The position numbers and the translations under genes were made by a program. Under the pieces are notes generated by a model. It was not told where the DNA came from. It searched no databases and was given only the letters and a program-made list of their open reading frames with translations. A DNA stretch of 64,000 bases from Polytrichum commune (taxonomy: Eukaryota; Streptophyta; Polytrichopsida; Polytrichales; Polytrichaceae): assembly GCA_950295325.1 (NCBI GenBank), contig OX485807.1:23345666-23409665 (forward strand), written 5' to 3'. Each line of letters starts with the position of its first letter. Within the stretch, counting starts at the first letter, position 1. Positions 2,574-49,290 of the stretch are shown here, one piece after another.

Positions 2574-4800
2574 TTGCTTGTGAATCAAAACCCGGGGCTA
2601 AGGTTTGAGCAGCTAGTGCATGCAGAAGATTTTGAGCTACATGCCACCAACCTCACAAGTTGATGATGATCTCCGGCAGATTCAACTCAACTCAACCCAA
2701 ACCTCTCTTGCAGACAAGTTAATAATTTCCTCGCTCACTAAGTATACTAACAGTAGAAGTAAGTCTGGTGAAGGGATGGATTTTTGATCTGGATGTTTAC
2801 AGAAGCCTTAAGAACTAGTGGAGGGCTCTGCAAGGAAACCCGATTCGGTTTTATCTTGAATCAGAGTGCTGCAGACGGCCGGGGTGCAGACAGAAGAAAT
2901 AGAAGAAAAAGAAGAAAAAGCGGTGGGGGTGTGTGTGGTCTGGCTTGCAACGCACATAAGGTGGGTTGGGTTGGATGATGAGCTAATGCTTAGGTGAGTC
3001 GAGAGATCAAGAGTGGCTAGAGGTGTCGCTTCTAAATCTGTACCTATTTTTGGGGAATATGTCCGAACTGGGGAAAGTCGCCGACTAATCAGAGTGAAGA
3101 ACCTGCTATTATAAGAGTCAACCGATGCATGTTGATGATGTCGAGAACATGCATTCCGGCCAACACGAGTGGGACAGAATGAATTTGGCTGGAGAGCCAC
3201 ATACACACGCACCCTCACTGCTTTCTGGGAAGAATAGAATAGAATGGAATGTTGGGCATGAGACGACCAGGTCCAGATTAGTTGCTCAGTAGCCACCTTC
3301 CGTCGAACCACCCACGCGCTTGCAGGACAAGCAGCAGCTGATCACCATCCTGAGCTCACACGCCCAAGCCTGCGAGCAGCCTTGAAGCGTGAAGTGCAAG
3401 CAAACTGCCTACAGCTAGCGAAGCTTCTACTTCGTTGATGAACAACATCATCATCATCATATCTCCTCCACCCACGTCGATGTCATTGATGAATCATTCT
3501 TCCTCCACACACCAACTCCCACATTTTTCCAGCTACCCAAACGGGTGGGGACGTGGGGTGGCGTGGGGTGGGGTTGGGGTTGGGGTCGAGGTTGGGTTAA
3601 CTTCACTTCACTGAACCCTCTACCGCAGCTTACTGCAATACTAGTTAGTAGAAGGCAGGCTTGACTCTCCTAGCTCCCACTTTGCACGTGTGACCAGATT
3701 CTACTACGCCATCACCAACCTAAAGCTTTCTATAACTACAACAACATCGATCGACAGCACCTAATCCGGCAGGCTGCAAGATATAATTCTACTAATCACC
3801 ACCAGATAAGCTAGTGATCTTTCTGATCACATCACCTACAACATCGGTAGAACTAGCGGCAAAAGCCACACGAGATGATGGTCGATGGAAACCCCAGCCT
3901 AGCCTGCTGGTGGGACTAACTTAGTTACACATGAGCTTCAAACGGGCGATGATGCAAGAATGATTCATTCGGATAGCTAGCTGTGGGTGCACCAGTTTCT
4001 GCGCCAGACAAAAAAAGCCGACCAGGTGACCCCTAGCTAGCTCAACATGCTAGGAGTAACGACGACGACTACGACGACTACGACTCCCGGACCCGCCGTG
4101 GCGACAACCCTGTTGTGTCGTGACTCATAACTCCCTCCTCTAAGTTCTTGCAGGGCTCTTCTTCTTCTCCTTCTGCTTCGTCCACTCGGTAACTTGTCAC
4201 AGTACGACTGCTTCCACACTAGCTAGCTAGCTAGCTACCCAATTCTTTCTTGCTTTCTTTCTTGCTGTTCCTCCATCCGTGAACTTAGCCGAAGGTGTCC
4301 CGAAGCTGCTGCTGGCGCGAGGACTAGACGACGATCCGCAATTCCTCCCTCTGCTACCTGACCGACCGGCTATACGTTCCAGAGACTCTCAAACTCAGCT
4401 TTCTCTTTTCTCTTGCTCTTTCCTCTCAGCGTCTCGACTTCCTCTTTCCCGGCTTTCGCTACCCCCCTAACTTGGGCTTCCTTCGCTGGGCTTGCCTTGG
4501 AGAATTCCTTCCTTCCGAACTTAATTCCTGTATAAAGGGAGTAAGCTACCCATTCCTGGAATCCTCAGGCTTCCATCCAAGTTCCGGGGGGCGGGCGGGC
4601 GGGCAGGCAGGCAGGCAGGCTTTGGGATTGTTTTCTTCTTCTTCGTCTTCGTCTCCGTCTTCTTCTTCTCCTTCTCCTTCTCCTTCTCCTTCTCCTTCTC
4701 TTCCCTGTCCGTCGTCCTCTGTCCGTGGGGACCCACCAGCGCTGGACTTTCCGGGCGTCACTGCTTATAAATACACCAGTGGAGCTAGGTAGCCTGAAGG
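2574..4800. promoter_or_regulatory. Upstream region of the GARP gene with pyrimidine-rich tract and TATA-like box
   Basis: No coding frame is supported. The plus strand from about 4140 to 4720 is strongly pyrimidine-rich and includes a CTT/TCC microsatellite at about 4628-4705 and short GGC/GGCA runs at 4587-4620. TATAAATA lies at 4766-4773 and reads as a TATA-like motif on both strands. If the GARP leader is long or contains an intron, its transcription start could lie here; the sequence alone does not decide this. Confidence 0.35.
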
Positions 4801-6035: not shown

Positions 6036-8280
6036 TTTGCTATAACTTTTCTTAGACTTGCCATTTCTTGTTGAGTGACTTGCTCGACCCCCTTAATCAA
6101 TGCCCGCCCTACCCACCTCTACCATCTCTAGATTCTGCAACACCAAATTCAGTGGCACACCTAGTAGCAAGCACCGAGAAATGCACACGCAACTTAATTA
6201 CAGCAACTCTAGGTTGGTGGGTTGCCTCTACCAAAGAGGAACCTTGCTTCATGGACAAAAGCAACCCTTAATTGCCTAAATGTCCCAAAGTGAGACTCCC
6301 AAGAAATAAAATGCTTGATCATAAAATTTCATTATTAGTTATCTTGTAATGTGGGTGAGGCTTGGGCTTTATGTGGTCCCTCTTCTCGATCAGACCTTCA
6401 AATTTGATTGGTACATGGCAAGGCTTGTAATTGAGAATAGACGTCAAAAGATATCTTACAACATGATATGAAATTGCACTATGTGCTCAGGGCTTAAACA
6501 TTTTATGGGTACACTTGTTAACTCAACTTGGAAGGTCTATGTGATCATTTAAGAAGAGAGGGGATTCTTTTTATTGACCTCATGTAAACTCTGCATCTCA
6601 AATCAAATTGTAAATCTTAAGAATATAGTCTTTGAGGTTTGAAGAAGTAAACTAATGAGAAAATTCCAGAGTCAATACAGTAGACATAAATTATTGTGGG
6701 CTTGGAAGTGCCAAGAATTGGGCACATTGGGGTCACGTATCCGGCACACACCTTGTGCTCTAGCATTGTCAACTATGTCCTCTCAAGAGATAGTTTGTCA
6801 ACTTGATCACTCCAACATTTTTCTTGCAACTTTTCACCAGTCTAGTAGGTTATGTAAGGTGGCCAATTTTATCAAGGTTTTCATCAAAACCTTAGAACTT
6901 GAAATTATGGAGACATTTAATAGTTTTTTCCTTTTCATGAATTCATCAAAGAAGACTATATATATATTCACACACTATGTTTTAAACCATATGATTGTGA
7001 TCCTTTGTATGAAACTGATGCCTATTGTATAATGACAACTTCTCTTTTGTGGTGATTCTTAAGAATCTCTCAATGTTATTCTAGAACATCTTAGAAATTG
7101 CTTTGCCCTTCGTGCCTTTAAAAACAATTCGAGAACTCCATAACAAGTTGACAACATGTTTCCTCCACTTTTGTAGAGGGAATAATAGGAGCAATGAAGA
7201 ATATACGTGATCCCAATGAACAATAGGTCGCTTACTAGTTTGATATTAGATAGCTCTAGGTCACCAAATTTGTTTACTCAAATAATTTCTTGCCAAATGG
7301 AGTTGCAGTGGACAAGTTGCAACAAATGGTAAGTTGTAATGAACACCCTTCCTTCTAGTGACATACTACGTGATTAAAGTACTTTGGACTTTTAGTGCTT
7401 GGAAATATATTTCTATACGGGAATTTGGAAAAGACCCACATAAGCATGTTGCACAAATTGATTAATATCTACATAAGATTCACTATGCGAGTATGTCCAT
7501 TCTCTATGTGCACGTTTATTGTTTGCAATCATATATAAACTAAACCCCAACTTGGGCGTTTGGGGGTTGTTTTCAACTAAATTGAATGTCAAGAAATTAA
7601 AGCATGAGTTCACGGTGATGTCATTAAAATCTTAAAACCTTTGTCTTCTGGACTTTGACAACAACCATGTTTTATGTTGTCATTAATGTGACCCACTCCA
7701 CATTTGACTTTAATTTTGAGTCTTCAAATAACCAGTAAACCTTTTTATAACACCAAATATGGCTGCCTATGTAGATTATGAATGCATCAAGAGTATTATG
7801 GTACATATGTGAATAATCACAATTACTTGAAGGTTAATAGTTTTAATGAATTCATAATTACACATTGTAAAAACAAAATGCGTTAAACTAAAATTTAATC
7901 AAAATTGTCAATAGATAGATTCATAAATAGATAAATATGAAGCATTAACTCCCAATGTATAAAGGAACAAACATGAATAAAGAGCCTCTTAAGTTTGCCC
8001 ACATGTCAATGTCCACTTTCAGGAGTAGGCTTATTTAAAAATGTTAGTAGAATAATGATAAATTATAATAATATGTCTTTAACTAAACTTTTAGTATTAA
8101 TTATCAACTCGGAGTTCATAATCAGCGTGGTCCATTCAACATGTAACGTACCTTTCTCTGCACCCAATCTTCTCCTTAAATTATACCATTGAGAGTCATA
8201 ACACATATCCCTAGCTCCATATATCAACAGCAAATTCACACTAATTAAACCACATCAGACTACATTGTTCAATTGATGCC
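6036..8280. other. AT-rich intergenic, no supported gene
   Basis: Short open frames occur on both strands (the longest 125 codons near 6655-7032). None shows a recognisable domain, splice structure or start context, and the sequence is AT-rich throughout. I see nothing functional. Confidence 0.5.
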
Positions 8281-34249: not shown

Positions 34250-34396
34250 GTCAAAATTGTGAATGGTCTGCCTCACGTGTGCCCATGCCACCAACCAAAT
34301 CCAAGGAGAGGGTTAGTAATGCACACGAGGTGAATAACAACAAATTAAAACCCAATTGTTATCTATGTCACACAAACAAAAACAACATAATCATAA
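34250..34396 (+). repeat. Left half of a resident repeat split by the 14.9-kb element
   Basis: Nearly the same as 57327-57445. Shared text includes GTCTGCCTCAC-TGTGCCC, ATGCCACCAACCAAATCC, CACGAGGTGAATA and CCCAATTGTTATCTATGTCA. The match stops where the CACTA-containing inverted repeat begins. Confidence 0.8.
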
Positions 34397-34424
34397 AACA
34401 CTATATTCGTTAAATTGAGACTTT
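34397..34424 (+). repeat. Left terminal inverted repeat
   Basis: A 28-bp sequence containing CACTATATTCG at its third base; exact reverse complement of 49259-49286. Confidence 0.9.
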
Positions 34425-34926
34425 CTCTAGTCTCAAATTAATATATGGATCAAAGAACTTGAAGAGGCCCGAAACTATATTGTCAACAATCTCAATTATA
34501 TTATATGTTCTAATATCCCAAATCTATGATGTGCGGACATAAGCACATATGGTAGAGCACTCGACACCAACTTCATCAACAAAAACACATTGGGTAGAGC
34601 ACTCCAAACAAGTTTCACCCAAAAAACATATAAACTGATTTCTATTATTAGCATGCACAATAGAATATAGACATTGCAACATACAAAGTGCATGTAATAA
34701 ATGCATATTTCTTCATTCGACAATATAGTCCCAAACATAATAATAAGATGAACTTCATTTTTTTTTGAAATATAGTAAATGGATATTCATCCAACTCCAA
34801 ACAATATAGTATTCGTAAGTTCTACCCAAACTCTGCCCCAATTTTGAAGAGCACACATATGTGTAATTTATATTGCTATAATTACATATTAAACTATAAT
34901 CATGCTAACACAATCCTACCAACTTC
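34425..34926. other. Left subterminal region of the element
   Basis: Non-coding, AT-rich. It holds a short diverged direct repeat around GGTAGAGCACTC (about 34551 and 34595). It is also the 3' flank of the DUF7869 gene. Confidence 0.4.
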
Positions 34927-37900
34927 TCATTCAACGTGGGTTGCTTCTTGTGCAATCCGAGCAAGGTTGTCTTTTGCAAAAGTTATGTACTTTTGAGGGA
35001 TGGACACTGATCCACTATGGTTTTTCCGTGGTTTCCATGCTATGAATATGGAATCTGTATCTACCCAAGATGGACCGTGCTCAGAATCCACCTTCCACCG
35101 AAAGTTAGGGTTTGTATCCCAGCCTGTATAATGCCGAATCACATCTTCATTCCTTGCTGTCGGTCGATAGTACTCCACTTGTATCTGTCGAAAATGAGGG
35201 CTGGAAGTTACAAAATTGGGTTTGGACAAAGCTCTTGCCACCCACACTGGCTTTGCATATGTCTCGTCTCCAGGACGTAAAATGAGCATATAACCTTCAT
35301 GACAATCCACTGCAATGCGGAAAGATGGTGGTGGACGACTACTAGCCGGCCCCACGTAATGGTCGTCCACATCAAACTCCTCTCGAACCTCTCCATTTCC
35401 CAAAAGACTAGGCTCCGAAGCTTGTACATCGACTCGTGTTTGTGGCCAAAATCCATGCCTCAAAGTATGAGGGCTATCTTGGTGGAGGTCTGCCAAGGCG
35501 GCACGAACACGTGTCCAATAATGTATCCAACTCCCATAACGATGCCAACATGATCCGCCAACATCCGCTATTTTCAAACTCTCCCAATATTGTATGAAGC
35601 CTGATATACCTTTCAAAATATCCTCCAAATTCTTCATGGCTATTGGCTTGCAAGGCCTAGGCTCCCCATCCGGTAACATGGTCTTTCCATCCGCATCCAC
35701 GCGCCACACAAGAAGACCCTCCGGCGGGCTCCAGTCTTGTGTCGTGCACAACAACTTGTATTGCATGGCCGGGACACCATCGTCACGCATATAGAAGCGG
35801 AATTGTTGTGCCTTCGTATGCCCGATCAATCGGTGAGCTCCACTTCGAATATAAGGTTCTATAAATGCCTTGAAGTCTGGCACCTCCTCAATCATATGGG
35901 GGATGACCGGAACGTTATCCAAATCCATGTACGACTTCATCAATAACGGGATTGTAGGGAAATCCTCCTCCCGCAACTTCATGCTCCACCGCCCAAAAGA
36001 TGCATCAATATCATCGTGCGTGTGGCCTACCAATAGGAAGGACACAAAAACCTCCTTGAAAATGCCTTTCGCAACCAACAACGACCAATATGCAAAAACA
36101 TATCTACTTTTATTGTCCTTGGCACAATTGTCCAATTGGACACGCAAAGTGGGAGGCAACTTTTTGGCAATCACGGGATCACTGGGTGGCTCTGGCAACG
36201 AATGAAAGCATACATCTTTTCCATCCAACAACGCTTCATATAGAGGTGTTGAACCCGTGTTTTCAAATAACAATCCTGAAGAATAGGCTGGCGGTTTCTC
36301 TAAATCACGTAAAAGCCTTGCAAATGACCCTATTGTGTGGTTTGAATCCGCTGGATACAAATCAAGAGCATAATGAGCAAACTTGACATCACCGTGTCCA
36401 TGTGCAATCATTCCTGTAATGCCAACCCAACGTGATTAGATATAATTAAACCATTTTGAGTGAATCCATGTTCTCAAGTACATCACGGAATAAAAAACCA
36501 CAACATTTAGGATATGTCATGACATTGTTTCGAAGTTCACCTGTAACCGATACAGGCAACTTAAAAAACCCATCCGTGGCCTTGATTCGATTTGCAAAAC
36601 ATGGGGAGGCTGTTTTGGCATGGTCCATTTTATCATGGATGACCGTAAGAACCTCCAAGGGCCTGGAGATGGACAAAGCTCTATTTGTGTAATAATCATT
36701 ACGGTGTGCCTCTTGCATGTTTACGTGCTTGAAATAGTTCAATTGATGCGCTGCATATGACTCGGTACCCATCGTGTGTGCATCCCGGAGGCGCTTCAAC
36801 TTCTCGCAATTAGAGCACCTGGCAAATTTGTCCCCTTGTCTTTTTGTAATGTATTCGCTAAAGTTTTGTTTCTTAATTGCACTCAATTTTGACAATGAAA
36901 TTGGCTCCAACCCAATCTTCTCGCCAACTGCATTCACGTCCAACAATATGTCTTTCCATTTTGTGCCTGTGGGAAGAACTTTCTCCACAACCTTTTCACC
37001 GGTTGTGAGCGTGCGTGTTTTGTGCGGCATTGCATCGGCAAGGGGGACAATGATGGTTGCTAGAGTGGCCGTTGCTTGCCTTGTTGCTTCCCTAGGCTTC
37101 TTTAAACCCACATTACCATGGTGACGGGACCGGCGGCCTTCCTTGGCATAAGCAGCTTGTCGATAAAAGTCCGCTTTCGACACACCGTGAATGGTGTACC
37201 ATGCCTTACAACACACGTCCATGCTTTCAATGGTGATGACCTTGCGACCCATCCCATTCACATGTATCGCCCTATGGACATCAAGTTTTCTTGTGGATCT
37301 TAGACGGAAATCTCCAAGCCACATTTCTTCGCGGATGGCCTTCAATTTATCCCTTGGAAACAATTGGCAACAACGATGCACACAACAATCCTTTGTGGCA
37401 ACTTCTCTAATGGACTCCTCCCCGAGCAACCTTTGACGTTTACAATCAGTTGCAGACGGAGCAGGACGTGCCAATGTATCGTACTTTCTTTGACCCTTGC
37501 GCGGCCGCATGTTTGCTTGCACCTCCTTTTCGATTTGCATGTGTCGTTGCTCATGTTCACGCAAGCTAACTCCATCAATTGTGACATTCCTCAACGGCCA
37601 CCTGCGGAGGGAGAACCTATGAGTGGGATCCACCTCGGAATGAACGACCGACTCCAATATGACAACCCCAACGTCCTCGGTGCCAAGCGGGTTTTCATCA
37701 ATGCAATCTTGCGGATGGGTGTTACGGCAAATCCCCTCCGCCACAACAACTCCACTATCGTTAAGAAGTATCACCTCCAAATTCACCCACGAAGCCCTTG
37801 AAAGTCCCGTACATTCAACAATGGGACACTGCGGTACGGAAGACGAAGGTAAATCCAAATGATCTTCATCCGCACTGTCAGCCATAGTAGCCTCCCCGAC

Positions 37901-38005
37901 AATGTCTAAGTCATCATCAGATGCAGATGGCCAAGTGGCCATGTCATCAGATGACCAATCCCCAATTTCACTAAACCCATCCATTCTGCCTACACACATG
38001 AACAT
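34927..38005 (-). CDS. DUF7869-type RNase-H-like protein (putative transposase), two exons
   Basis: Exons 38005-36541 and 36413-34927 join across a 127-bp GT-AG intron (GTGAAC...TTACAG). This restores the continuous sequence LPVSVTG then MIAHGHGD and gives 983 aa without stops. An acidic N-terminus is followed by Cys/His-rich patches (CCVHRCC at 207-213, CSNCEK at 397-402) and then the conserved core: HDKMDHAKTASP (457-468), LDNCAKDNKSRY (582-593) and VGHTHDDIDASFGRW (617-631). The acidic residues D458/D461, D583 and D625 would suit an RNase-H-fold DDE/D active site. DUF7869 proteins are multicopy, transposon-associated proteins of unproven function; calling this the transposase is inference from its position. 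The first ATG may be 38005 or 37984 (MDGFSEIG). Confidence 0.75.
36414..36540 (-). other. Intron of the DUF7869 gene
   Basis: The reading frame on each side continues for a few dozen codons or less into this stretch. Splicing at GT (36540) and AG (36414) removes two frame-breaking stops and gives VSVTG-MIAHG. This is the only join that keeps the family sequence collinear. Confidence 0.8.
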
Positions 38006-40240
38006 TGAACATTGTCAAAAAATCACAAAAATTGTAGGTTCAAATCGAAGACCACAAAAACCATCATATATAAACAAAATTGCAAATACTCAGTGCTCAT
38101 GCCTTTCCCACCTAGTCTCCTTTGGACGTTAATTCAAACCTTCTGACTCAATTTCCCGCTTCTTGTCAATAATAGACAATGTATATTTAGCTTGGCTCTT
38201 CGTTGCCCCAACCATCAAATGAATAATTCAACATATATTATTTAAAGTTGTTACCACCCTAACTTGGTCAACACTATTCTTCAACTCTTTCATAATTAGT
38301 TTTATACATGAATACACCACCACCTTCCCTATTGCCATCTCCTTTCTCCTTTTATCATTGTTGTATTTTTTTCTCACATCCTTACTAATACTAAATTCCT
38401 ATATGTAACTTCCATATATCACCACAGTGGATATTTAGTGTTTGAGTTTACATTTAATGTTACTTACTCTCATAGGGTTAGTAATAGGAAGTGTATGCGT
38501 TCGTTTTAAGTGTATCAAACACTAACTATCATATAACTAAAAAGGATATAAAGATTTTGATACACTACATATGAACGCATACACTGAATACCAATAACCC
38601 TGTGACAATATGTAAGATTATATCTATTAAGGGGTTTTACTCTACTTGTAGTCAAACATTATGGTATATTTCAAACAATATATTGACAAAAGATGTGCAT
38701 GTATTACAAAACTTCATATACTAAAAGTCACTAAAAGTCACTAAATATAATAGTTAATGCAATTACTTACACTCTCACATGAGGACTTATATTTTGAAAA
38801 CAAATAATTAATGCCATGACAAACTTGAATAATTTGGCCAACTTTCAATTTCCGCTAGTTAAAAGAACATCTGTTGTGTTGTAATGTGTGCACCCAATAT
38901 TGCTTCATCCTCAAGGCTCCAAGTGTGACAATAACCTAGTACCTATGTGGAAGTCATTAATGGAACCATAAACCACAAATGACATTTGGCACATTCAATG
39001 TTTCAATGATGTTTGAACCTATCGTGAAGTCCCTTGAACTCTAGCAATGTGTGTGAGCAAAACATGCAAAGTTCAAAAGGTATGTCCTCATATCATTCAC
39101 AACATGAAATCTACCTTAAATTAATATATAATATTTCACTATTCCAAATAACATGTTAACATGAACAACATCCTATCTATTATAATCTAGTTCTTATGCT
39201 CTTCTTACCAGGTGACAAGGTTATAGGTTAATATTGTATCACCTACTTGTGAGCACAATATCATTTATTTCCTTTAGTGCGTTCATTCGTGAAAAACCAC
39301 ACATCCATCTTTCACGTTCGTGAATTAGGATGTTGTGATGACATTATACATTTGTATTGGAAACTACAAGCACCAAGGCCCATGTCATTTGACCTATGTG
39401 CCATCCAGTTATGGTTTGTGTTGTTTAGGGTTTAGGGTTTAGGGTTTAGGGTTTAGGCATCATCAAACATCAAATTGAATGTTTAAATGACTTCATATGA
39501 TATGTGAACTCCATGGGGTTGCAGTAGATACATTTGTAATCATTTGTTTCTCCCATGTACTTCAAATGTGAACTTCTAAGTACATATATTAATGTTCACT
39601 CTAATGCTACTTGTTAGGGTATCCATTATAGACTAGAGCATTGTCCTCTACCAACAACCATCATATAAATTACAATACATAATCCTAAACTGTTAACCAT
39701 GTGAATGGTTACCATATTTATATTATTGCACCGTGTAATTGCCTTTGTGGATTGCAATATAATTATGACTTACTCCTCTTAGACTTTGTAACACTCTCAT
39801 ATGATTCCATAAATTACATTATTCATACACCAAAACGATAATGGCTACATTCTACGATGTTATCAATTCCAACGGGTGATCATTCAATTGAACACCATTA
39901 AAATATGAGTTGGCGATGGTGTTAATTTTGTGGAATACCTTAGTCCACGTAGGTTTTTGAGTGGTATTGAATTGCCGCTAATGAATAGCGGGTTAGAAGG
40001 CCGGGGCCGGGCGGCCAAGAGAGGCGCCGGCCCTCCTATGTCCCGCACCTAGGGGCAAGGACAACCAGGAAGGCAATCTGCCTAGGGTGGCAGGTGTCAA
40101 CACCACAAGCCTCGCGGGCAACCACCTTAACCAAGGAGGTGTCGACACCTGGCAGGGTGTTGGCCCGCGAGGCTTCTGAGCCGTTGATGGGCCCGGCGCA
40201 ATCTAATGGCCCGGATTCGAGGGTTTAGGGTGACCCCTTC
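38006..40240. promoter_or_regulatory. Divergent intergenic region with telomere-type repeats and GC-rich promoter
   Basis: Lies between the 5' ends of the two divergent genes. It contains 4.9 units of TTTAGGG at 39424-39457 and another GGGTTTAGGG at about 40220-40230 (telo-box-like). The last 240 bp are strongly GC-rich. They hold two palindromes, GGTGTCAACACC (about 40092-40103) and AGGTGTCGACACCT (about 40137-40150), and an inverted pair AGCCTCGCGGGCAAC / GTTGGCCCGCGAGGCT (about 40109-40123 and 40159-40174). Telo-boxes are common in plant promoters; here they may drive one or both genes. Confidence 0.5.
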
Positions 40241-40835
40241 CGCTCTCTCCTTCTCTCCCCTCCTCTTTTTTCTTTCTCTCTTTTTCTTCCTCTCTTCCTC
40301 CGCGCCAAGCGCCGCTCTTGGAAACGCCGCCGCCGCTTTCCATAGCGCCGCGCCAAGCGCTTCCTTTCGCACCTTTTGCTTTTGTCTTGGTCGCGCCGCT
40401 TCCTTTCATTCTTCTTTCTCCTTCATTCCTGTCCTCCTCTCTGATGCTTCTCCTCCTCTTCTCTCATTCTATTCCTCTTGTTATTGTCTTCCTCTTGTTA
40501 TTCTCTCTTCTTGGTCCAGAGTGTTAGCTTTGAGTGAGTTCGGAGCGGTTTATTGTGTTGAACTCCTTACTTGTTTTGTAAATTTCATGCATGGAGTGAT
40601 TTTAGGTTGAGTAGAAGTGAGCACGGTCGAGTGTGATAGAAAGGTAGAGGTCTTTCAAATTAGGCCTGAGTTTGCAAGAATCAGGGGGTTTGTGAGAAAG
40701 TTTTAGGGTGCTTGAGAGATTCATTGTGTTTCTGAGGTCTTTGTGAGAGTTGTTCTTTAGTGCCACAACAGAGTTTCTGAGTCTGGTTGTAAGAAGCAGA
40801 TTGTGAGAGCAGCTTTCAAGAGTTTGAAAGACAAG
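40241..40835 (+). other. Likely 5' untranslated exon of the ParB/methyltransferase-like gene
   Basis: A CT-rich tract starts at about 40241, typical of plant leaders. The segment ends at AAG|GTAAGC (donor at 40836) and the matching acceptor TTGCAG at 41833 lies directly before the start ATG. A 134-codon frame beginning at 40206 is low-complexity Ser/Leu/Phe and is probably not a protein. Exact transcription start unknown. Confidence 0.45.
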
Positions 40836-41028
40836 GTAAGCAATTTGCATCAGTGCACACAATTTGCATCATTCCCTTTAGGTTCCTGTTACATATACAA
40901 TGCATAAGCATTGTATATGTTGCCGAAGCATTAAACATGCATCTGGAAACACAGTAGTTTGGGGAGACGACCCAAACTCATATTAAAATATAATAAATAT
41001 TTGAATTGCAGCCTAAAATGAACTAAAT

Positions 41029-41193
41029 GTTTGGGTCGATCGACCCAAACATTGCAGCGTCTTGTTTGGGTCGAGCGACCCAAACATTGCAGCGTCTTGT
41101 TTGGGTCGAGCGACCCAAACATTGCAACCTCTTGTTTGGGTCGAGCGACCCAAACATTGGAGCCTCATTATGTTTGGGTCGCTCGACCCAAAC
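41029..41193. repeat. Palindrome array A: five sites, about 35-bp period
   Basis: Perfect-arm sites start at 41029, 41064, 41099, 41134 and 41172. The central dinucleotides are AT, AG, AG, AG and CT. The first is a perfect 26-bp palindrome (41027-41052). Spacers are short and similar (CATTGCAGCGTCTT type), so the unit was amplified in tandem. A decayed copy lies upstream at 40957-40977. Confidence 0.95.
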
Positions 41194-41669
41194 ATTACAG
41201 GGAGAAGAAGTAAACCACATTGTAAAATATAAAAGAACTTTGAAAATGAAGTAAATGTTTGGGTCGTTCGACCCAAACATTGCAGTCTAAAATGAATGGG
41301 TTGAGCTTCCTAAACTTGCAGCCTCATCATGTTTGGGTTGCTCGACCCAAACATTACAGGGAGAAGAACAAACCACATTGTAAAATATAAAAGAACTTTG
41401 AAAATGAAGTAAATGTTTGGGTCGTTCGACCCAAACATTGCAGTCTGAAATGAATGGGTTGAGCTACCTAAATTTGCAGCCTCATCATGTTTGGGTCACT
41501 CGACCCAAACATTACACGGAGAAGAACTAAAACACATTGTAAAATATAAAAGAATTTTGAAAATTAAGTAAATGTTTGGGTCGTTCGACCCAAACATTGC
41601 AGTCTGAAATGAATGGGTTAAACTACATAAATTTGCAGCCTCATCATGTTTGGGTCGCTCGACTCAAAC
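41172..41669. repeat. Palindrome array B: about 158-bp tandem repeat with two sites per unit
   Basis: About three units plus a partial. Sites at 41172, 41331, 41489 and 41648 have centre CT; sites at 41257, 41415 and 41574 have centre TT. Spacing is 158-159 bp in both series. Three CT-series sites carry one substitution each (GGGTtG, GTCaCT, GACtC), all C-to-T or G-to-A. A further degenerate site lies at 41785-41806. Confidence 0.9.
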
Positions 41670-41833
41670 ATTGCAGGGTGACCACCTAAACCATAATTTA
41701 AAATCTAAAAGATCTTTTAAAACGACTTTGAAAATTAAGTAATGTTTGGGTTAATCCTCCAAATGTTAAATGCACATTGCAATACTTTGGGTCGATCGAC
41801 CGAAACTCACAGTTTCGATTTCTTGGGTTGCAG

Positions 41834-44800
41834 ATGGCCCCTAAAAAGAGACCAGGTGAAAGGTGGTTCATGCTCGCGCCAGACCACCTTTGGCAGGAGT
41901 ATGAAACTCCACAGGACGATTCTTACGTCCCAAAAGATGGCGTCGTTCTGGCATGGTCCGTTCAGGTGGTGAAGGCATCCATGTTCAAGCTGCTATTCGT
42001 GGTGAAGGTGGGGACCCACGAGCAGCACACCTGGGCAACGCTGACGGGATGGGAGGTTGCGTCTGTCCAGTCTCTCGGGGACTATGTAGACGTCATACTG
42101 GAGAACTCCGCCGTGCAGAACGTCCACATGTTCATGCACCAGTTCTCCGAGCCCTTCGACCCCCTGTACGCCAAGGAGACCTGCGTCGACCCTGAAACCA
42201 TACAACCGGAGGCCATATTCATAGATGGCAGTGTAACCAACACGAAGGTTGCGAGCAGGTTCACGAAGTTAAAACAGGCCATCACGGTTCTAAACAAGGC
42301 GCTGCAAAGCAAACCCAAGACACAACAGCCTGTGAGGTGGAAGGCACCGACGGAAGAAGGCGCAGGGTCCTCAAGACCACAAACTGTGAGGAAACCGCGG
42401 GCGGTCCCTGTGGAGTCGAGACGGACAAGTACTACAACAACGCCGGCTGATAGCGAGACGCCAACGCCATCAACAAGCCGTCAAACGACCCCTTCCAAAA
42501 GGGGAAGAGAGTCATCGGTGATGACTGACGAGCCTGTTTCCCCGGAGCTCCGGATGCCGAAGCCTGGCCAGGAGGTGGATGCAGGCGAAATACAAAAAAT
42601 AAACACCAACTTCGAAACAAAATGCCTGCACTGCTTCTTCATGGGCAGGGACTTCAAGTTCGAGGTCAACATTGCGCAGTGCCACCTTGCGCCACCCGAG
42701 AAATGTGTCCGAGCCAAGGAGGACGCCTACGTCGACTGGATGGTCGCTCAAATCTTGGGCGGGCAGTTCAAGGACGACAGGCAGACGATTGTTGTCATGC
42801 CACAAGGGTTGAAGAGAATGCCGACGCCTGATATGTGGCCGACAATCTCCAAAGGAGACTTCTAGTTGATTGACGGGCAGCACAGTGTGGAGGCATAAAA
42901 AAAAATCCAGCTGATGACCGAGTGGAACGACCCGAACAACCAGAAGGAGAAACTAAAAGTTTGGAAGGCTTTGGTGGTTTGGTCGGACAACGAGACGGTC
43001 CTCAGCGACATCTCCAGGTTCTTCAACATGGGGAACAAAAAGAGGGCCTATCAGGCATCGTGAATCAGAAACATCATGGCCTCGTGGGAGGTGTGGGAGT
43101 TTTATGGCAGGCCTCCCAGGGAAAGGGAGAATGCTAAAGATAAGAACCCCAAATGGGAGGTGAGTATGTTTGGGTCGACCGACCCAAACTCTTTCATTGT
43201 TTTAGTGTCTTCAACAAATTCATAGTTTGGGTCGCTCGACCCAAACTCTTGCATGGCTTTGTTGTCTTTACCAGGTTTATAGTTTGGGTCGATCGACCCA
43301 AACTGCTGTTTCATTTGTTATTCCATGAGATGTTGTCTAACATGAATTGTTGGCTACGTGTGCAGGACTTCAAATATCAGATGATCAATAAATTCTCCTC
43401 GATAGATAATGCTAGCCACAAGCAAAAAAAATATAACGAGTTGCGAGGAGAAATATATTTGATCACCACGTCCGACTCCGTGTGGGGAAAATGGAGGAGT
43501 GTTTTTGAAAAACACGAGACGGGGGACCTTATGGACCCCGACACCGGCATGCTCTTCAACCAGACTACGCGCTTCAAGCAAATGAAGCCTCTGGTGAGGG
43601 AGTTCTTCAGAGCGCTTCAAGGTCTTTCCGAGACAGAGATGGGAAAAGCGGCGTCCCACATCCTACACGTGGAGACGACGGCGAAGAGATGCTGGGTCCA
43701 CCCCAAGATCGTCTTCACCAAACCCAAGATCTTCGTCCCTTCATGCTACACCATGAAGGAATGGACGGAGAACAGGAAGAAGAAGACGACCATCGTCCAA
43801 GAGCTGCACAAGCTGGTGCCCGAGAAGAAGCTCATCGTGGACGGAGAGGTCGACGAGGCGCACTGGAGGGCCTTCAAAGCCGAATATAAGTTCACCAGTG
43901 CGTCCATGGCGGCACTCATGAGGGAGGCGGGAGACGACTTCCTCAGATCCAAGCTCGTGAAGGGGGGGAGGAACCGGGTGCTTCCCGAACACTCAGCGCG
44001 GGCCTTCTCCAACTTCATAAAGGAGAAGAAGATCGTCAGTTTCGAAGGCGATGCGCAATTCAACATGGTCACCGTCGAGCCTCTCAGGATCCAAGGTTGG
44101 CCGGGCTCTGAGTCCAGGAAGGCGATCAGGACTAAAGCCGGGGACCGCTTCCCCTTCGGAATGATAGACTTCAGGAATATCCCTGGAGCCTCATTCGAGG
44201 GGACTATGAGCACCCCTTTTTACGATGCTTTCTTGTCGAAGTTCGTGGACTACGCCAGCCCCAAATTCAGGGAGGTCGACGTCTGGCTCTGGATTGTCGA
44301 GGACAGGAGGGCAGAGCAGGTTTACGAGATCGTGCGCAAATTGCAGCCGGAGTATGCCGTCTCGAAATCTCACTACGTTGCTGCACCGGCGGAGGGGGCG
44401 TACAACACGTTGAAAGACAAGAAGACGAAGATCGTCAACGTGTTGTGCTTGTACTTCGTGTACAAAGCTGATCTACTTAAGGTGCCCAACCATCCTATAG
44501 CCAGGATGGAAAAGCTCTTCCAAGTCCAAAAAGGGTTGGGTACCAGCAGGAGCTTGTATGACGAGGCGAAGTACGCCAACTACCCCGCGGATGAGCTGCG
44601 CATGGAGTTCTACCTGCGGATGATGAGGACCCTCACCAAGAGAGGGGACTGCATCTTCAACGTTTTCGGGGGATCCAAACCGATTTTTGCAGCAATGGTA
44701 AGCAAAGAACCCTGAAAGCCCTATACGGACGGTTTGGGTCGAGCGATCCAAATTGTGTTTGCCCCTAGTTTGGGTCGAGCGACCCAAACTGTGCACGCCC

Positions 44801-46448
44801 TAGTTTGGGTCGAGCGACCCAAACTGGGTATGCCCATAGTTTGGGTCGCTCGACCCAAACTGTGCATGCCCTAGTTTGGGTCGCTCGACCCAAACTAACT
44901 ATTCTTATTTTATTTTGGATGTCATTTTTCCTTACTCTTCATTAGTTTATACTAATACTATTGATTTGGATTGTGCAGATGTCTGGGTTGAACATCTACT
45001 CCTATGTGGAGGATGCCGATGTTCAATTTTACAGGACCCAGAAGGCACTGGCCAAGAAAATGGACATCCTTGACTGGATACCCGGATCCTACGTTGAAGA
45101 GATAGTCGAGGGGGGCGAGAATCCTTTGGATATGGCGAGGCGAATCAACCCGGGTGAATTCGCCATGCGTGCCCCCGTTCAATTGCCAAAGCCGCTCATC
45201 GGGTTGCATCCGGGCAATCCGTCGATGGGAGCAGGTGGCGAGGTTGGGGAGGAGGGGGGGGAGGAGGAGGAGGAGGAAGCAGAGAAAGTGGAGGGGGAGG
45301 TGGAGGAAGGGGCAACAGGATTCACTCAAGAATCCGAGGCCCCTCAGCGGAAGAAGGCCATGCGGGCTGCCACGCCGCAAAGCAGGCTGGTGCCCGCGTT
45401 GACGGTGGACGACGCGAAGGACATGTACTCGAGGGACGCGACGGCCACCTTCAGGGAGCGGAGAAGGATGAAGGGGAAGAAGCTGTACGGGGACTATGCG
45501 GTGGAGGAGACAATCGCAATAAGCTCAGAGGACGAGGACGACATGGAACTCGCCAAGAGGCTGAGGTCGGATCCTGCCTCCCCCAGAGCGTTCGCCGGGA
45601 ATGTGAGGGTGAAACCGGAGGTCCTCACCGTGGAGGAGGCGAACGCAAAAATGCTCCGAGACGAGGAGCAGCGTGTGCGACTGCAGAGGGCTGCTGCCGA
45701 GGAACCCTCGGTCCGCAACGAAGTGGCGGAGTTGAGGGCTCTCCTGTTGGAGCAGGAGCGGCAAAGGGCGATGGCCCAAACTCCGTCCCAAGCGGAGCTC
45801 ATCACGCAAGTGATCCAGGGCATGCTGGCGCAGGGATTGGTGATGGCTCCCCCGAGTTCATTCCCGCACTTGCCCGCAGGCTTCCCGCCACAGGATATCG
45901 CCCCGCGGCCCACGCTGCAGCATTCCTTCAGCTTCGCACAGTTGCTGCAGCCGCACGCCCGTCCTTACGCGCCCGTCCAGCATGTGGACGACCCCAACCT
46001 TTGGCGCATCCCCGGTGCGTCCAGCTCGTTGGCGCCCCCGCCGCTCCGGCCTCCCATCCTCTCGCCCCCACACCACCAGCGGGACGACCCCCACATGTTT
46101 GGGTCGTCCGACCCAAACAGTGCCGACGTTGCAGCGTCCCAGAGCGACGCTCGCCAAGCAGCAGGGTTTGGGTCGGCCGACCCAAACCCCGTCCCCGACC
46201 AGAGCCCGGTGGACGAGGGCATGTTAGACGTTGAAGGCCCGCAAGGGCCTGGTGATACCTCTACTCCTAACCCAGTCGATGAACCAATGCATGATGCGCA
46301 TGCGGAGGTTGGGTTGGGACAAAGGCCTGACAGTCAGCCTTTGCAGGAGCAGGTTGCGGCTGACGTCGTCGTCGGAGGCGGCGGTGACAGAGGTGGGGCA
46401 GCGCAGGCGATGCCGGCATCAACGTCGTCAAGGCACGACCAAGGCGAG
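41834..46448 (+). CDS. Spliced gene with ParB/Srx-like domain and DNA-methyltransferase-like region; first exon has three in-frame stops
   Basis: Exons 41834-43159, 43366-44697 and 44979-46448 are all joined in phase 0 with GT-AG introns (1376 codons with stops counted). Residues 345-351 read LIDGQHS, the DGQHR-type signature of ParB/sulfiredoxin folds. Residues 865-905 (MRTLTKRGDCIFNVFGGSKP then IYSYVEDADVQFY) resemble the SAM-binding F-x-G-x-G/T segment and following acidic residue of N6/N4 DNA methyltransferases. Residues about 703-720 sit where DPPY is expected, but DFRN is seen. ParB-methylase fusions are known in bacteria and phages. The exon-4 tail holds an acidic run, a SUMO-interaction-like AISSEDEDD, a Glu/Arg-rich coiled coil and a Pro-rich stretch. 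Stops at 42863, 42896 and 43061 break the ParB region. The domain calls are from motifs only. DNA binding and methylation are inferred roles. Confidence 0.5.
42863..43063 (+). pseudogene. Three in-frame stop codons in the ParB-like exon
   Basis: TAG at 42863-42865, TAA at 42896-42898 and TGA at 43061-43063 interrupt a frame that otherwise stays collinear and protein-like to the donor at 43160. Two sit where Trp codons (TGG) would fit the local sequence, consistent with G-to-A changes. Either this copy is decaying or an unannotated splice avoids the segment. Confidence 0.7.
43160..43365 (+). other. Intron with three palindromes at 57-bp spacing
   Basis: Donor GTGAGT, acceptor GTGCAG. Perfect-arm sites start at 43168, 43225 and 43282 with centres AC, CT and AT. 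The spacing is exactly 57 bp twice, with related spacer text (TGTCTT-A-CA). The first site starts 8 bp after the exon end. Confidence 0.8.
44698..44978 (+). other. Intron with five palindromes at 35/36-bp spacing
   Basis: Donor GTAAGC, acceptor TGTGCAG. Sites start at 44732 (decayed, GCGATCCAAAT), 44768, 44803, 44839 and 44874, with centres AG, AG, AG, CT and CT. Spacing alternates 36, 35, 36, 35 bp. Spacers share TGTGCA-GCCCTA. Confidence 0.85.
46097..46187 (+). repeat. Two palindromes inside the coding exon
   Basis: Sites at 46097-46118 (centre TC) and 46166-46187 (centre GC) have perfect arms and are read in frame as FGSSDPN and FGSADPN in the Pro-rich tail. They use the same frame of the palindrome. 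The arms match the intron copies base for base, although many synonymous changes would be free. Confidence 0.9.
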
Positions 46449-46967
46449 GTAATGCACTGACCCCACTCAGTTTGGGTCGGTCGACCCAAACTCCATGGGT
46501 CTTTGTCTTCTTGCCTTGGTCGTGTCCCCTAGCTACCCTAAACTCACACACACGTCGCCCCCCCCCCCCCCGGCACTCGCGCCCTTCGCCACATCCCCCC
46601 GACCATTCGTTCGTCCACCTACCCCGGCTTGCGACGAAGTCTTCATCACGGCGGCCCGTCTCTTCAAATTTTCTTAGATTTAGAAGTAGGCTAGTTTGAA
46701 CGCATCGTTCAACGCGGCTCCCCCCAATCAAAATGTACATAGAGCATTGTATACAATACAATCACCATTTTTGACTCCTATATACTTGTATATTGTGTTT
46801 GAATGTATTTTGTATGCTCTTGTCTCTCTTGTATCCCTTGTTGCACCCCCCTCCAAAATGAATCAATTGGTTTTGTGTTTGCACCAAGAACACTCGTTTC
46901 CTTAATGCTTCGTTTGGACATAGCATGACATAAGTCGCCCACCGTTTTCTCTCGCTCGTATCCGCAG
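46449..46967 (+). other. Intron with one palindrome (46470-46491, centre GT)
   Basis: Donor GTAATG and acceptor TATCCGCAG after a pyrimidine-rich tract. The remaining sequence has a C run at 46557-46571 and no coding frame that I can support. A second acceptor (GAGGGCAG at 47026) would extend the intron to 47026. Confidence 0.6.
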
Positions 46968-47785
46968 GGCTCGGAGCATAGCGTAGCGGCTCCCCGACGC
47001 TCTTCTCCAAGGAGCGCAGAGGGCAGCACGGCGGCCCCCCCGGTTTTACCCGCCCCGCCCCGCCCCCGCTGCCGAAGAAACGATTCCTGGTGTTAGACCT
47101 GAACGGTGTCCTCGTGCAGTGCGTTCATTGCCCTAGGGCCCCCACAGTGCCCTTTTGCAAGCCCGAGGATGCTAATTACGACGGGCCGCCCACGTTCATA
47201 AAGAGCAAGCTAGTTCACCTCCGCCCGTGGCTTCGGACCTTCCTCCAGATCGCCCAACAACGATGGTGGGTGGTCGTGTGGAGCTCCATGACGGCCGAGA
47301 ACACCAATGCGGTCGTGGAGTTCATCTTCAAGGGCATCGAGCCCCCCTGCATGGTCCTAGCACAGGAAGCCTGTAGAATATTGTACACACAGGACGGCAA
47401 AGTCGTCAAAAAACCAAACAACCCCGCTTCCCCCCAATACCTCAAGGTCTTGAAGCCCATTTTTTGGGACCAGCGACCGTCCTTGATAGGCGTCCCCTAC
47501 GACGTCCGCCCCACCCGCGAGAACACGCTCATAGTGGACGACAGCGCCGCAAAGAACATGTTGAACCCGACGGCCAACTTCATAGTGTGCCCTACCTGGA
47601 CGGTCGAGAAGGTCCGGGACCGATTTTTGTTAGACCTTAGTAAATACCTCCAGGCGCTCTGGGGAAGCGGACTTCCCGTAAACAATTTTGTTAGGAATAA
47701 TCCCATAGGCGAGAGATACTTGGATCCACGAGACCATTTGTACAGAGAGTTGTTATCTCACGCGAAATTTAACAAGCTCATTTGA
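46968..47785 (+). CDS. FCP1/NIF-like HAD phosphatase exon
   Basis: Encodes a HAD-fold phosphatase of the plant FCP1-homology type. Motif I is VLDLNGVL (47090-47113), with the usual DLNG of the plant branch. Motif II is WWVVVWSSMT (about 47264-47293) and motif IV is NTLIVDDSAAKN (about 47522-47557). The C-terminus has FVRNNPIGERYLDP and a stop at 47783-47785. With the acceptor at 46967 the frame is shifted relative to motif I in a C-rich tract. With the acceptor at 47026 the join to the previous exon is phase 0 and in frame (HGGPPGFTRPAPPPLPKKRF). So no frameshift need be assumed. Whether the phosphatase is fused to the upstream ParB/methyltransferase-like protein or made separately is open. 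Confidence 0.7.
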
Positions 47786-47928
47786 GACAGTACGTGTGTT
47801 TGTATGTGCGTGTGTGTATATGCGCCTGCCCATTTTGTGTAATTTACGCTTCATATGTATCTTGATTTTCACGCGCTCTATCTCCCCCCTTTTCCTTGGG
47901 TTTTGTTTTGTTCCAATTTTGGCTCCAG

Positions 47929-48738
47929 CGTTTGGAGCCCTCGATTGACGTCGTCAGCGAGTCAGACTTGGGGAGCTTCTTCTACGAGACCGTTTACGAC
48001 GCCGCGTCAACCATCGACTACTCCAAGGAGCCTCTTGACGCCGGCGTCGTCGATAGCCCCCCACCCAAGCAAATCTTCCGGCGATCTGCGTCCCCGTCAC
48101 CGTTCAAAGGCATAAATCGCAAATGCGTCCGGACATCCCCCTCTCGGCCCGGCGGCAGTAGTACACCTCAACGGCGGCTGCGGATGGACGCTCGGCCTAC
48201 GAAGAGTGGAACCCTTCCTATTCCTTTGCGGGATGCCTTGCCCCTCCTCGCCAACTCCGACGGGAACGCCCCCGGTGACAAGGTGAACCCCCCCCAACCC
48301 CCCCAAAAAACATGGTTATCCGCGCATTACAATCATTTTGCACTTAAAAAATGATCGTGTGACACGTTTGGGTCTTCCTCCCTAAACTAACACATGTGTT
48401 CTTGCGTTGACGCGTTGCAGGTTGCTCCCACCCGTAAACCTATGCGGTCTAGTGCGTCCATCGAGTTGGAGCGTTTCTACTCCATGACCAGAAATGCAAG
48501 ACAATCCACTTCATCGTATTCAAATTCTTCGTCGTATAATTCGGGCGGCCGACGGAATACAAAATGTGTTATTGATGGCGTTCACCCCAAGAATGGCTAT
48601 AGTCGCGGGGCGGAGATTTTCAGGAATGTTGAAGCAATGCGAGCAAAAGAAGCTGCAGCAAAAGAAAAAGAGGCAAAAGAAAAAGAGGCAAAAGAAAAAA
48701 AAGCAAAAGAAAAAGAGGTAGTATCCGAGGCTAGATAG
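47929..48738 (+). CDS. Two further coding exons, Lys/Glu-rich tail
   Basis: Exons 47929-48282 (RLEPSIDVVSESDLGSFFYE onward) and 48421-48738 join in phase 0 (GACAAG|GTGAAC ... GTTGCAG|GTTGCT). The second ends in AKEKEAKEKEAKEKKAKEKE and a stop at 48736. No domain is recognised. The phase-0 start after TTGGCTCCAG suggests splicing from an upstream phase-0 exon, i.e. an alternative 3' end to the phosphatase exon, whose own stop lies before this acceptor. The intron between them contains a decayed palindrome at 48366-48387. Confidence 0.45.
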
Positions 48739-48777
48739 GCCATAGTAGGCGTAGGGTTTTGGGCCATAGGCAAGAAC

Positions 48778-49155
48778 ATTTTGGGTCGCACTATCCAATG
48801 CATGTGTGGTGTTAGCATGATATGCATTTTACATGCCATACTTTGTATGTTTTTTTTTGCAATAATACAAGTTAGACATGATTTCCCCTTCCATATGGTC
48901 TAAGGTTTGGATTGCCCTACCTAAACCATCACAAATATGAGTTTGGAATATTTTGTATGCAATATTATATTGGTTAACATATTAACCCTTCAATAAGATC
49001 TATGGCTTGGATTGCCCTACCTAAACCATATTCATACAAGCTCTAATATTTTGTGTGCAATAATATGAATGTTTTAAGGTTTCCCCTTAAATGTGGTCTA
49101 AGATTTGGATTGCCCACCCTAAACCATCACAAATATGAGTTATTTATGGGGTTCT
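48778..49155. repeat. Right subterminal repeats of the element
   Basis: Three diverged direct copies of TTTGGATTGCCC-ACCTAAACC, two of them followed by ATCACAAATATGAGTT, lie at about 48905-48945, 49005-49035 and 49091-49141. A decayed GGGTCG-palindrome half lies at about 48782. Subterminal direct repeats are typical of CACTA-type elements. The core looks like a degenerate form of the palindrome. Confidence 0.55.
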
Positions 49156-49258
49156 TGGTCTAAACACCTGCTTCAAAGTGTTCGCATCTTACAACTTTCT
49201 CCAATATGTGTTCCATTTATCCTTGTTCTTATTTATGTGAATGTCTCAAAATGCCCAA

Positions 49259-49286
49259 AAAGTCTCAATTTAACGAATATAGTGTT
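49259..49286 (-). repeat. Right terminal inverted repeat
   Basis: Exact reverse complement of 34397-34424; ends TAGTG plus TT, followed by ATAA. Confidence 0.9.
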
Positions 49287-49290
49287 ATAA

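Follow-up and report, generated by a model that had tools for sequence, protein, structure and literature searches.

Sequence-specific anti-silencing by transposon proteins has been described in few systems, for which the sections of PMC10398659 on the subject name VANC in Arabidopsis and TnpA and MURA in maize, with Spm TnpA and MuDR MURA as the other demethylating element proteins. According to the parts of PMC5735166 on target recognition, VANC21 binds short motifs in the introns and noncoding parts of VANDAL21 and removes methylation, and these motifs, laid out in introns and upstream regions, have spread as tandem repeats that are gained and lost. A further class is known from algal transposons such as Sola1-1_Ec32 of Ectocarpus, where an accessory gene opposite to the transposase encodes ParB-like and N4/N6-methyltransferase parts and where the accessory proteins are suggested to bind and modify the DNA of their own element (accessory-gene passage of PMC12477816, with reference to Iyer 2011 and Petroll 2025). 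Here we describe a 64-kb stretch of the Polytrichum commune genome (contig C5, 23345666-23409665; the whole stretch is called the window) in which a DNA transposon carries arrays of a long palindrome in its accessory gene, next to a DUF7869 gene. The palindrome recurs in a second transposon family and, judging from its sequence pattern, is very probably the binding site of a dimeric protein.

Neither this class of accessory protein, if the present ones belong to it, nor the targeting of motif arrays by element proteins is new. What was not found described in the literature searched, with subscription journals and preprints mostly outside its range, is a long palindrome whose base code can be read and which recurs in two families that carry accessory genes. 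Palindrome arrays go unmentioned in the relevant passage of PMC12477816, and the word 'palindrom' is absent from its main text. No literature on DUF7869 was found, and among the matches listed for the arm string none had a transposon context by title.

Palindromic sites in the window and in the genome

The window contains 18 exact matches to TTTGGGTCGNNCGACCCAAA at positions 41030-46490, where 100 dinucleotide shuffles lead one to expect none, and all 18 possess the outer G...C pair, which gives perfect 10-bp arms and a 22-bp palindrome. Another five copies match the 20-bp core with a single mismatch (41332, 41490, 41649, 41786 and 44733) and a relic with three mismatches lies at 48780, matching the original prediction of 18 copies with perfect arms accompanied by decayed ones. 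Exon and intron positions are our own reading of open frames and splice sites, with GT-AG introns identified by eye; on this reading 16 of the 18 perfect copies are intronic (5' leader intron included) and two lie in a coding exon, where they encode FGSSDPN (46098) and FGSADPN (46167). The sites, which have no strand, are arranged as follows.

41030..41805: site group 1, eight perfect and four one-mismatch palindromes (20-bp core) in the 5' leader intron
43169..43302: site group 2, three perfect palindromes in intron 2
44733..44894: site group 3, four perfect and one one-mismatch palindrome (20-bp core) in intron 3
46098-46117 and 46167-46186: two exonic palindromes, in frame and 69 bp apart
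46471..46490: a single perfect palindrome in the intron after exon 3

Simple duplication had been judged insufficient to explain the conservation of the arms. The window arrays are in part tandem duplications after all, with units of 35, 57 and 159 bp, but the palindrome arms are common to arrays whose units otherwise differ. The motif had been assigned to one gene of one element; the genome (407.8 Mb in 64 contigs, seven of which make up ~406 Mb) holds 9731 exact copies of TTTGGGTCGNNCGACCCAAA, against 0 for a reversed-pattern control, and a second family carries them too. Full 10-bp arms are present in 9231 genomic copies, and allowing up to one mismatch raises the count to 12519, of which 2788 have one mismatch. 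The exact 22-bp palindrome has no match in viral_contigs or genome_contigs.

The two central bases do not vary freely, as they were first thought to do. Among the 9731 exact sites, 5678 centres are purine-pyrimidine (RY), 4015 are RR or YY (by subtraction) and 38 are YR; all 38 read CA/TG, with TA and CG both at 0. A purine follows GTTTGGGTCG in 79% of half-sites, for which independence predicts ~430 YR sites. Because YR centres are so scarce, a purine follows GTTTGGGTCG in one half or the other at nearly every site; its absence from a single half-site is tolerated, but its absence from both is hardly ever seen. A C directly outside the arm is avoided as well (137 of 18462 half-sites). On the gene strand RR and YY centres are about equally frequent (23 and 18 distinct contexts), exonic and intergenic copies follow the centre rule too, and no arm spacing other than 2 bp was found in the DNA retrieved. 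At the second site of intron 3, centres switch between AG and CT in copies with nearly identical spacers (L017-L037), which amounts to an exact inversion of the palindrome and not to point changes. This switch makes up 42 of 501 compared centres, all at that one site, and no other kind of centre change occurs among them.

Conservation of the arms

How far the arms are kept while their surroundings decay can be read from intron 2, compared across the distinct rows of 30 copies of the window's transposon family (family 1, F1) plus copies L042 and L043 of subfamily III. Units within one array are not independent, and site counts are not counts of independent events. Between subfamilies I and II the arms differ by 1.4% (69/4760), the spacers by 26% and the centres by 52%. 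For subfamily I the differences are 2.7% in arms and 47% in spacers from L042, and 1.0% and 49% from L043; for subfamily II they are 2.0% and 44% from L042, and 0.4% and 48% from L043. In exon 1, raw synonymous differences between subfamilies II and III are 77-79% (saturated) and nonsynonymous ones 8-9%. As the arms differ by 0.4-2.7% and the spacers by 44-49% between subfamily III and the other two, with synonymous sites saturated between II and III, the arms are under selection.

Of 52 exonic sites, from the 28 of 30 F1 copies with such sites in range, 46 are perfect. In subfamily III, exact 20-bp core pairs at the same 69-bp spacing occur at C1:1190419/1190488 and 2115829/2115898, their exonic position being deduced from this spacing, and one of the two pairs lacks the outer base pair.

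A similar picture emerges from CpG content. The spacers of the 78-bp array in copy L039 hold 2 CpG where 70.6 would be expected, together with an excess of TG+CA, and its 17 sites hold 34 CpG; in other F1 array spacers, observed and expected values are 2/71.3, 11/43.1, 2/50.9 and 1/12.9. Of the 71 distinct one-mismatch contexts, 51 are G>A or C>T changes when read by half-site, and decaying sites would therefore seem to rot like methylated DNA. Arms kept over spacers, a fixed 2-bp spacing and strand-symmetric centres (RR 23, YY 18) are what a recognition site for a homodimeric protein would be expected to show, and to this extent the original prediction is borne out.

Two transposon families carry the sites

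The window sites lie within an F1 copy with the following features.

34397..49286, plus strand: F1 DNA transposon copy, 14,890 bp, whose 28-bp terminal inverted repeats are AACACTATATTCGTTAAATTGAGACTTT; the region homologous to copy A (contig C7) has the same limits
34397..34424, plus strand: left terminal inverted repeat, 28 bp
49259..49286, minus strand: right terminal inverted repeat, 28 bp
left 34393..34396 and right 49287-49290, no strand: 4-bp target site duplication ATAA flanking the copy
34927..38014, minus strand: DUF7869 gene, presumed transposase, with long open frames at 34927-36435 and 36446-38014 (PF25273, E 4.7e-43 on 34930-36435)
38099..38100, no strand: junction at which this copy lacks a 1.6-kb segment that in copy A contains the 78-bp palindrome array (L039 977-2597 missing, flanks align)
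41834..43162, plus strand: accessory gene exon 1, with a LIDGQHS (ParB/DGQHR-like) motif near its end and three in-frame stops in this copy
43369..44697, plus strand: accessory gene exon 2, with a dN/dS of 0.05-0.08 in four comparisons of subfamily I with II, which shows purifying selection
44982..46446, plus strand: accessory gene exon 3, own reading of frames
46982..47782, plus strand: downstream exon with a NIF/FCP1-type phosphatase domain (PF03031, E 2.1e-15), probably part of the accessory gene, to which it is joined by splice-site reading only

The DUF7869 gene (minus) and the accessory gene (plus) are divergent, and in copy A they are separated by an array 1.3 kb long, in which 17 palindromes recur in 78-bp units. 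Copy A has the same ends as the window copy, with CATT duplicated on both sides; F1 termini are AACACTATATTCG and target duplications are 4 bp in both copies whose ends were read. Because the array segment is absent and exon 1 has three stops, the window copy is best regarded as a damaged member of F1; the exon 1 frame is open in copies L039 and L041. Accessory exon 2 matches 95 genomic places at 89-100% identity (95 of 1230 candidates scored), and its low dN/dS shows that the accessory protein itself is maintained. One of these copies, on the opposite strand 92 kb away (C5:23296864-23298192), encodes an exon 2 protein 100% identical to that of the window. Five telomere-like GTTTAGG units lie inside the window element upstream of the accessory gene (39423-39457), and a genome-wide search with PF25273 returned further DUF7869 open frames of 677-692 aa beside the 502-aa type of F1.

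The second family (F2) looks MULE-like. Its transposase-like exons have a weak SWIM match (E 0.076), no Pfam MULE match and no DUF7869 match, and both copies with both ends read show 9-bp target duplications (GTTGGCATG and CTTTTCCAC), so that transposase genes and element ends differ between F1 and F2. The F2 palindromes form 32-bp units in an apparent intron of the transposase-like gene and occur again upstream of a divergent second gene, with the transposase-like exons on the minus and the accessory gene on the plus strand.

Within C1:0-3.5 Mb, all nine clusters read (among the clusters listed) lie inside one or the other family. Three are F1 (616-626, 1180-1190 and 2115-2125 kb) and the others F2 (438, 462, 2154-2159, 3440-3445 and 3490-3494 kb, plus a split array at 475-478 kb); the match to F2 covers part of the element at 462 kb and the array alone at 475 kb. 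Two more clusters, at 2.416 and 2.474-2.480 Mb, stand outside the nine, the former ~2.3 kb from a DUF7869 match. Across C1-C5, 88 of the 100 listed sites with a C flanking the arm (of 137) have an F1 or F2 gene match no more than 16 kb away, compared with at most ~4% of random places, and one of the 12 away from a marker (C1:438278) proved on reading to be F2. The expectation that the motif clusters with its element holds up for clusters and for C-flanked sites, with the amendment that two families share it; it fares worse for the YR-centred sites, which are taken up below.

Several other arrangements were seen in or near F2. Copy L047 has a second array (6722-7867) with a 64-bp unit in ~18 copies, whose consensus includes a second palindrome, CCCTGTGCGTTAACGCACAGGG, in imperfect form; its core GTGCGTTAACGCAC is present six times in F2 copy M1 and not at all in F1 copy A. 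At C1:475.4-477.7 kb (L006, L008) an insert that by eye resembles an LTR element interrupts the palindrome array; its ends are TG...CA and it appears to be flanked by a 5-bp duplication, ACGAC. Further accessory genes of the F2 type, 41-42% identical, make up a third group, with members at C6:18793700, C1:10936911, C3:55774228 and other places.

The accessory protein

The accessory genes of both families encode a short motif, FWLIDGQHSVEA in exon 1 of F1 and FFIWDGNHRFFA in F2 (LIDGQHSVEA and IWDGNHRFFA). We take DGQH/DGNH to be the short motif of ParB/DGQHR-type domains, no profile having confirmed it. In F2 the DGNHR motif and a methyltransferase-like C-terminal part (PF01555) were read by eye as exons of one gene. 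The catalytic methyltransferase motif [DNS]PP[YFW] was not seen by eye in F1 or F2. Compared with PDB sequences, the methyltransferase-like part of F2 gave a single weak and irrelevant match, and the ParB-like part of F2 gave one match at E 5 in phage tblastn, in two records of the same phage. No relatives of F2 were found in viral contigs.

As a binder the DUF7869 protein is the weaker candidate: the sites are found in F2 as well, where the transposase-like exons do not match this domain. That the accessory protein is the binder appears somewhat better than an even bet. The report of the algal ParB-methyltransferase class, as its accessory-gene passage presents it (PMC12477816), moved our estimate slightly in this direction and slightly away from a host factor.

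Possible function and alternative explanations

The sites, the selection on them, their link to two families and the centre rule can be read from the DNA directly. Since the palindrome stays intact while the DNA around it decays, it probably serves to dock a protein which the elements use on themselves. The unit GTTTGGGTCG-NN-CGACCCAAAC, with any centre except YR, would be a double-stranded docking site for a symmetric protein dimer. Both families maintain arrays of it in introns and in the stretch that separates their divergent genes, and F1 also has it in one of its exons. We infer as its reader the accessory protein of both families, encoded beside different transposase genes and marked by the DGQH/DGNH motif and, in F2, by the methyltransferase-like C-terminal part. 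The bound protein may stop silencing or turn on element genes, as VANC does on VANDAL and TnpA on Spm; such a use is possible, though we rate it a little below an even chance. As the main alternative, it may mark the element's own DNA with 6mA or 4mC, as suggested for the algal ParB-methyltransferase proteins. A motif shared by two families might also permit mutual help in trans. Taken as a whole, with binder and effect both inferred, the reading of the palindromes as docking sites of the accessory protein for anti-silencing or other element control stands at about even odds. A more far-reaching version, in which ParB-like, methyltransferase-derived proteins of the two families load on the common palindrome in the manner of ParB on parS, spread along the element and exclude the host DNA-methylation machinery, would also make this an anti-silencing system exchanged between transposon superfamilies; we consider it unlikely.

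Several observations weigh against the docking-site reading with the accessory protein as binder. No ParB domain was matched in the accessory exons in Pfam, PHROGs, NCBIfam or PADLOC, the motif of copy L042 reads DGQYN, and AlphaFold2 without an alignment gave a pLDDT of 33 for the ParB-like stretch and exon 2 of the window. Comparison of the F1 with the F2 accessory protein by hhalign gave no significant homology (P 0.26, pairing limited to the region of the DGQH motif). The F2 match to PF01555 (N6_N4_Mtase) is weak, at E 3.7e-4 and 20.9 bits against a Pfam cut-off of 26.7, alongside PADLOC MTase_II at E 3.8e-4; the F1 gene has no methyltransferase match in Pfam, a similar-looking stretch being recognised by eye only. 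In phage tblastn, 14 of the 15 records listed (of 24) are annotated as methyltransferase or methylase and one is unannotated, all at E 0.5 or worse. The VANC domains DUF1985 and DUF287 were not found in the F1 and F2 exons scanned, which did not include every exon. As to the sites, the contrast between arms and spacers is weaker within subfamilies (1.9% and 5.0% for I-I, 0.8% and 5.5% for II-II). Spacers of five F2 arrays are weakly depleted in CpG (9 vs ~21 expected), one of the five without clear depletion (3 vs 3.6), and F2 sites have lost some of their CpGs. Finally, 11 of the 38 YR-centred sites lie near an F1 or F2 gene match, among the gene matches listed; those away from markers may be decayed copies.

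Alternatively, a transcription factor or chromatin protein of the host could bind the palindromes and be exploited by both families, for example for germ-line expression. An identical site in two families with different transposase genes, whose accessory proteins are not demonstrably homologous, would fit such a factor, as would the listed sites that lie away from listed element genes (12 of the 100 with a C flank, 27 of the 38 with a YR centre). A host regulator should have host targets too, however, and all nine clusters read lie in transposons with no host-gene cluster among them, in what is a small sample; we regard this explanation as rather unlikely. It is less probable again that the sites bind transposase for synapsis or excision, like the subterminal TnpA repeats of En/Spm. 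Arrays of short symmetric motifs in a DNA transposon would suit this role, and there is precedent for an element protein acting on its own element in Spm TnpA (sections of PMC10398659 on that protein). Against it, the perfect sites closest to the two ends of the window copy lie 6.6 kb in from the left and 2.8 kb in from the right and are hence not subterminal, and transposase genes and ends differ between F1 and F2; decayed relatives of the palindrome do lie closer to the right end of F1 than the perfect sites.

Perfect self-complementarity and intronic position would also agree with RNA or DNA hairpins (splicing, a small-RNA source, cruciforms), in which structure rather than sequence is kept. 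Here the sequence is fixed, and among 32 decayed sites with two to four mismatches there are 2 with a compensated pair and 3 with an uncompensated symmetric pair. The balance of RR and YY on the transcribed strand is not required by RNA loops, and exonic and intergenic copies keep the centre rule. The centre rule and strand symmetry therefore point to a symmetric dimer on double-stranded DNA and not to an RNA hairpin, which leaves hairpins quite improbable. Least probable, by a small step, is that the sites have no function and the arms are alike through tandem duplication and gene conversion. Closely similar copies do gain and lose array units (periods 32-159 bp), and the weak contrast within subfamilies would be in keeping with this, but duplication would homogenise spacers and centres as well as arms, which it has not done in the comparisons with subfamily III. 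F1 spacers are nearly without CpG, yet the sites keep theirs, and we have no neutral explanation at hand for the exclusion of YR centres. Serine-recombinase core sites, which have a 2-bp core, were considered and dropped; no recombinase search was made.

With the docking-site reading, a likely target becomes visible at base resolution, in thousands of natural variants, and its tolerated and forbidden bases can be read from one genome. If the accessory protein is the reader, the self-binding suggested for the algal proteins would become directly testable, and such parts could pass between transposon superfamilies.

Comparison with known systems

The algal ParB-methyltransferase elements resemble F1 and F2 in having an accessory gene opposite to the transposase and a ParB-like motif, a likeness drawn from their description and not from algal sequences. 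In F1 and F2, by contrast, the ParB part amounts to no more than a motif, and a weak methyltransferase match is confined to F2, with no catalytic motif seen by eye; the families are different ones (DUF7869 and MULE-like).

The palindromic site of ParB is parS. ParB-methylase fusions are known in bacteria and phage, as noted in parts of PMC5512222. The DGQH/DGNH motif, the methyltransferase-like C-terminal part of F2 and the palindromic site are reminiscent of both, as a likeness in motif; in contrast, the accessory exons have no Pfam ParB match and the setting is that of eukaryotic transposons.

En/Spm elements (CACTA) have a 3-bp target duplication, termini that start with CACTA and subterminal repeats. 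F1 instead has 4-bp duplications (ATAA and CATT in the two copies read), termini AACACTATATTCG and a DUF7869 gene, and the sites described here are internal, palindromic and long. The resemblance to TnpA lies in an element protein that acts on its own element, an action correlated with demethylation in the sections of PMC10398659 on Spm. By mechanism, the site system would be a member of neither Spm nor VANC.

VANDAL elements differ in that their 9-bp motif YAGTATTAY stands against a 22-bp palindrome with a centre rule, and in that the palindrome is common to two families, is in some cases exonic and accompanies exons in which, as far as they were scanned, DUF1985 and DUF287 are not found. What VANDAL and the present families share is the general layout: motif arrays in introns and upstream noncoding regions, present as tandem repeats gained and lost between copies, and an accessory gene beside the transposase. 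F2, with its 9-bp target duplications (4 bp in F1), may in addition be of the MULE type.

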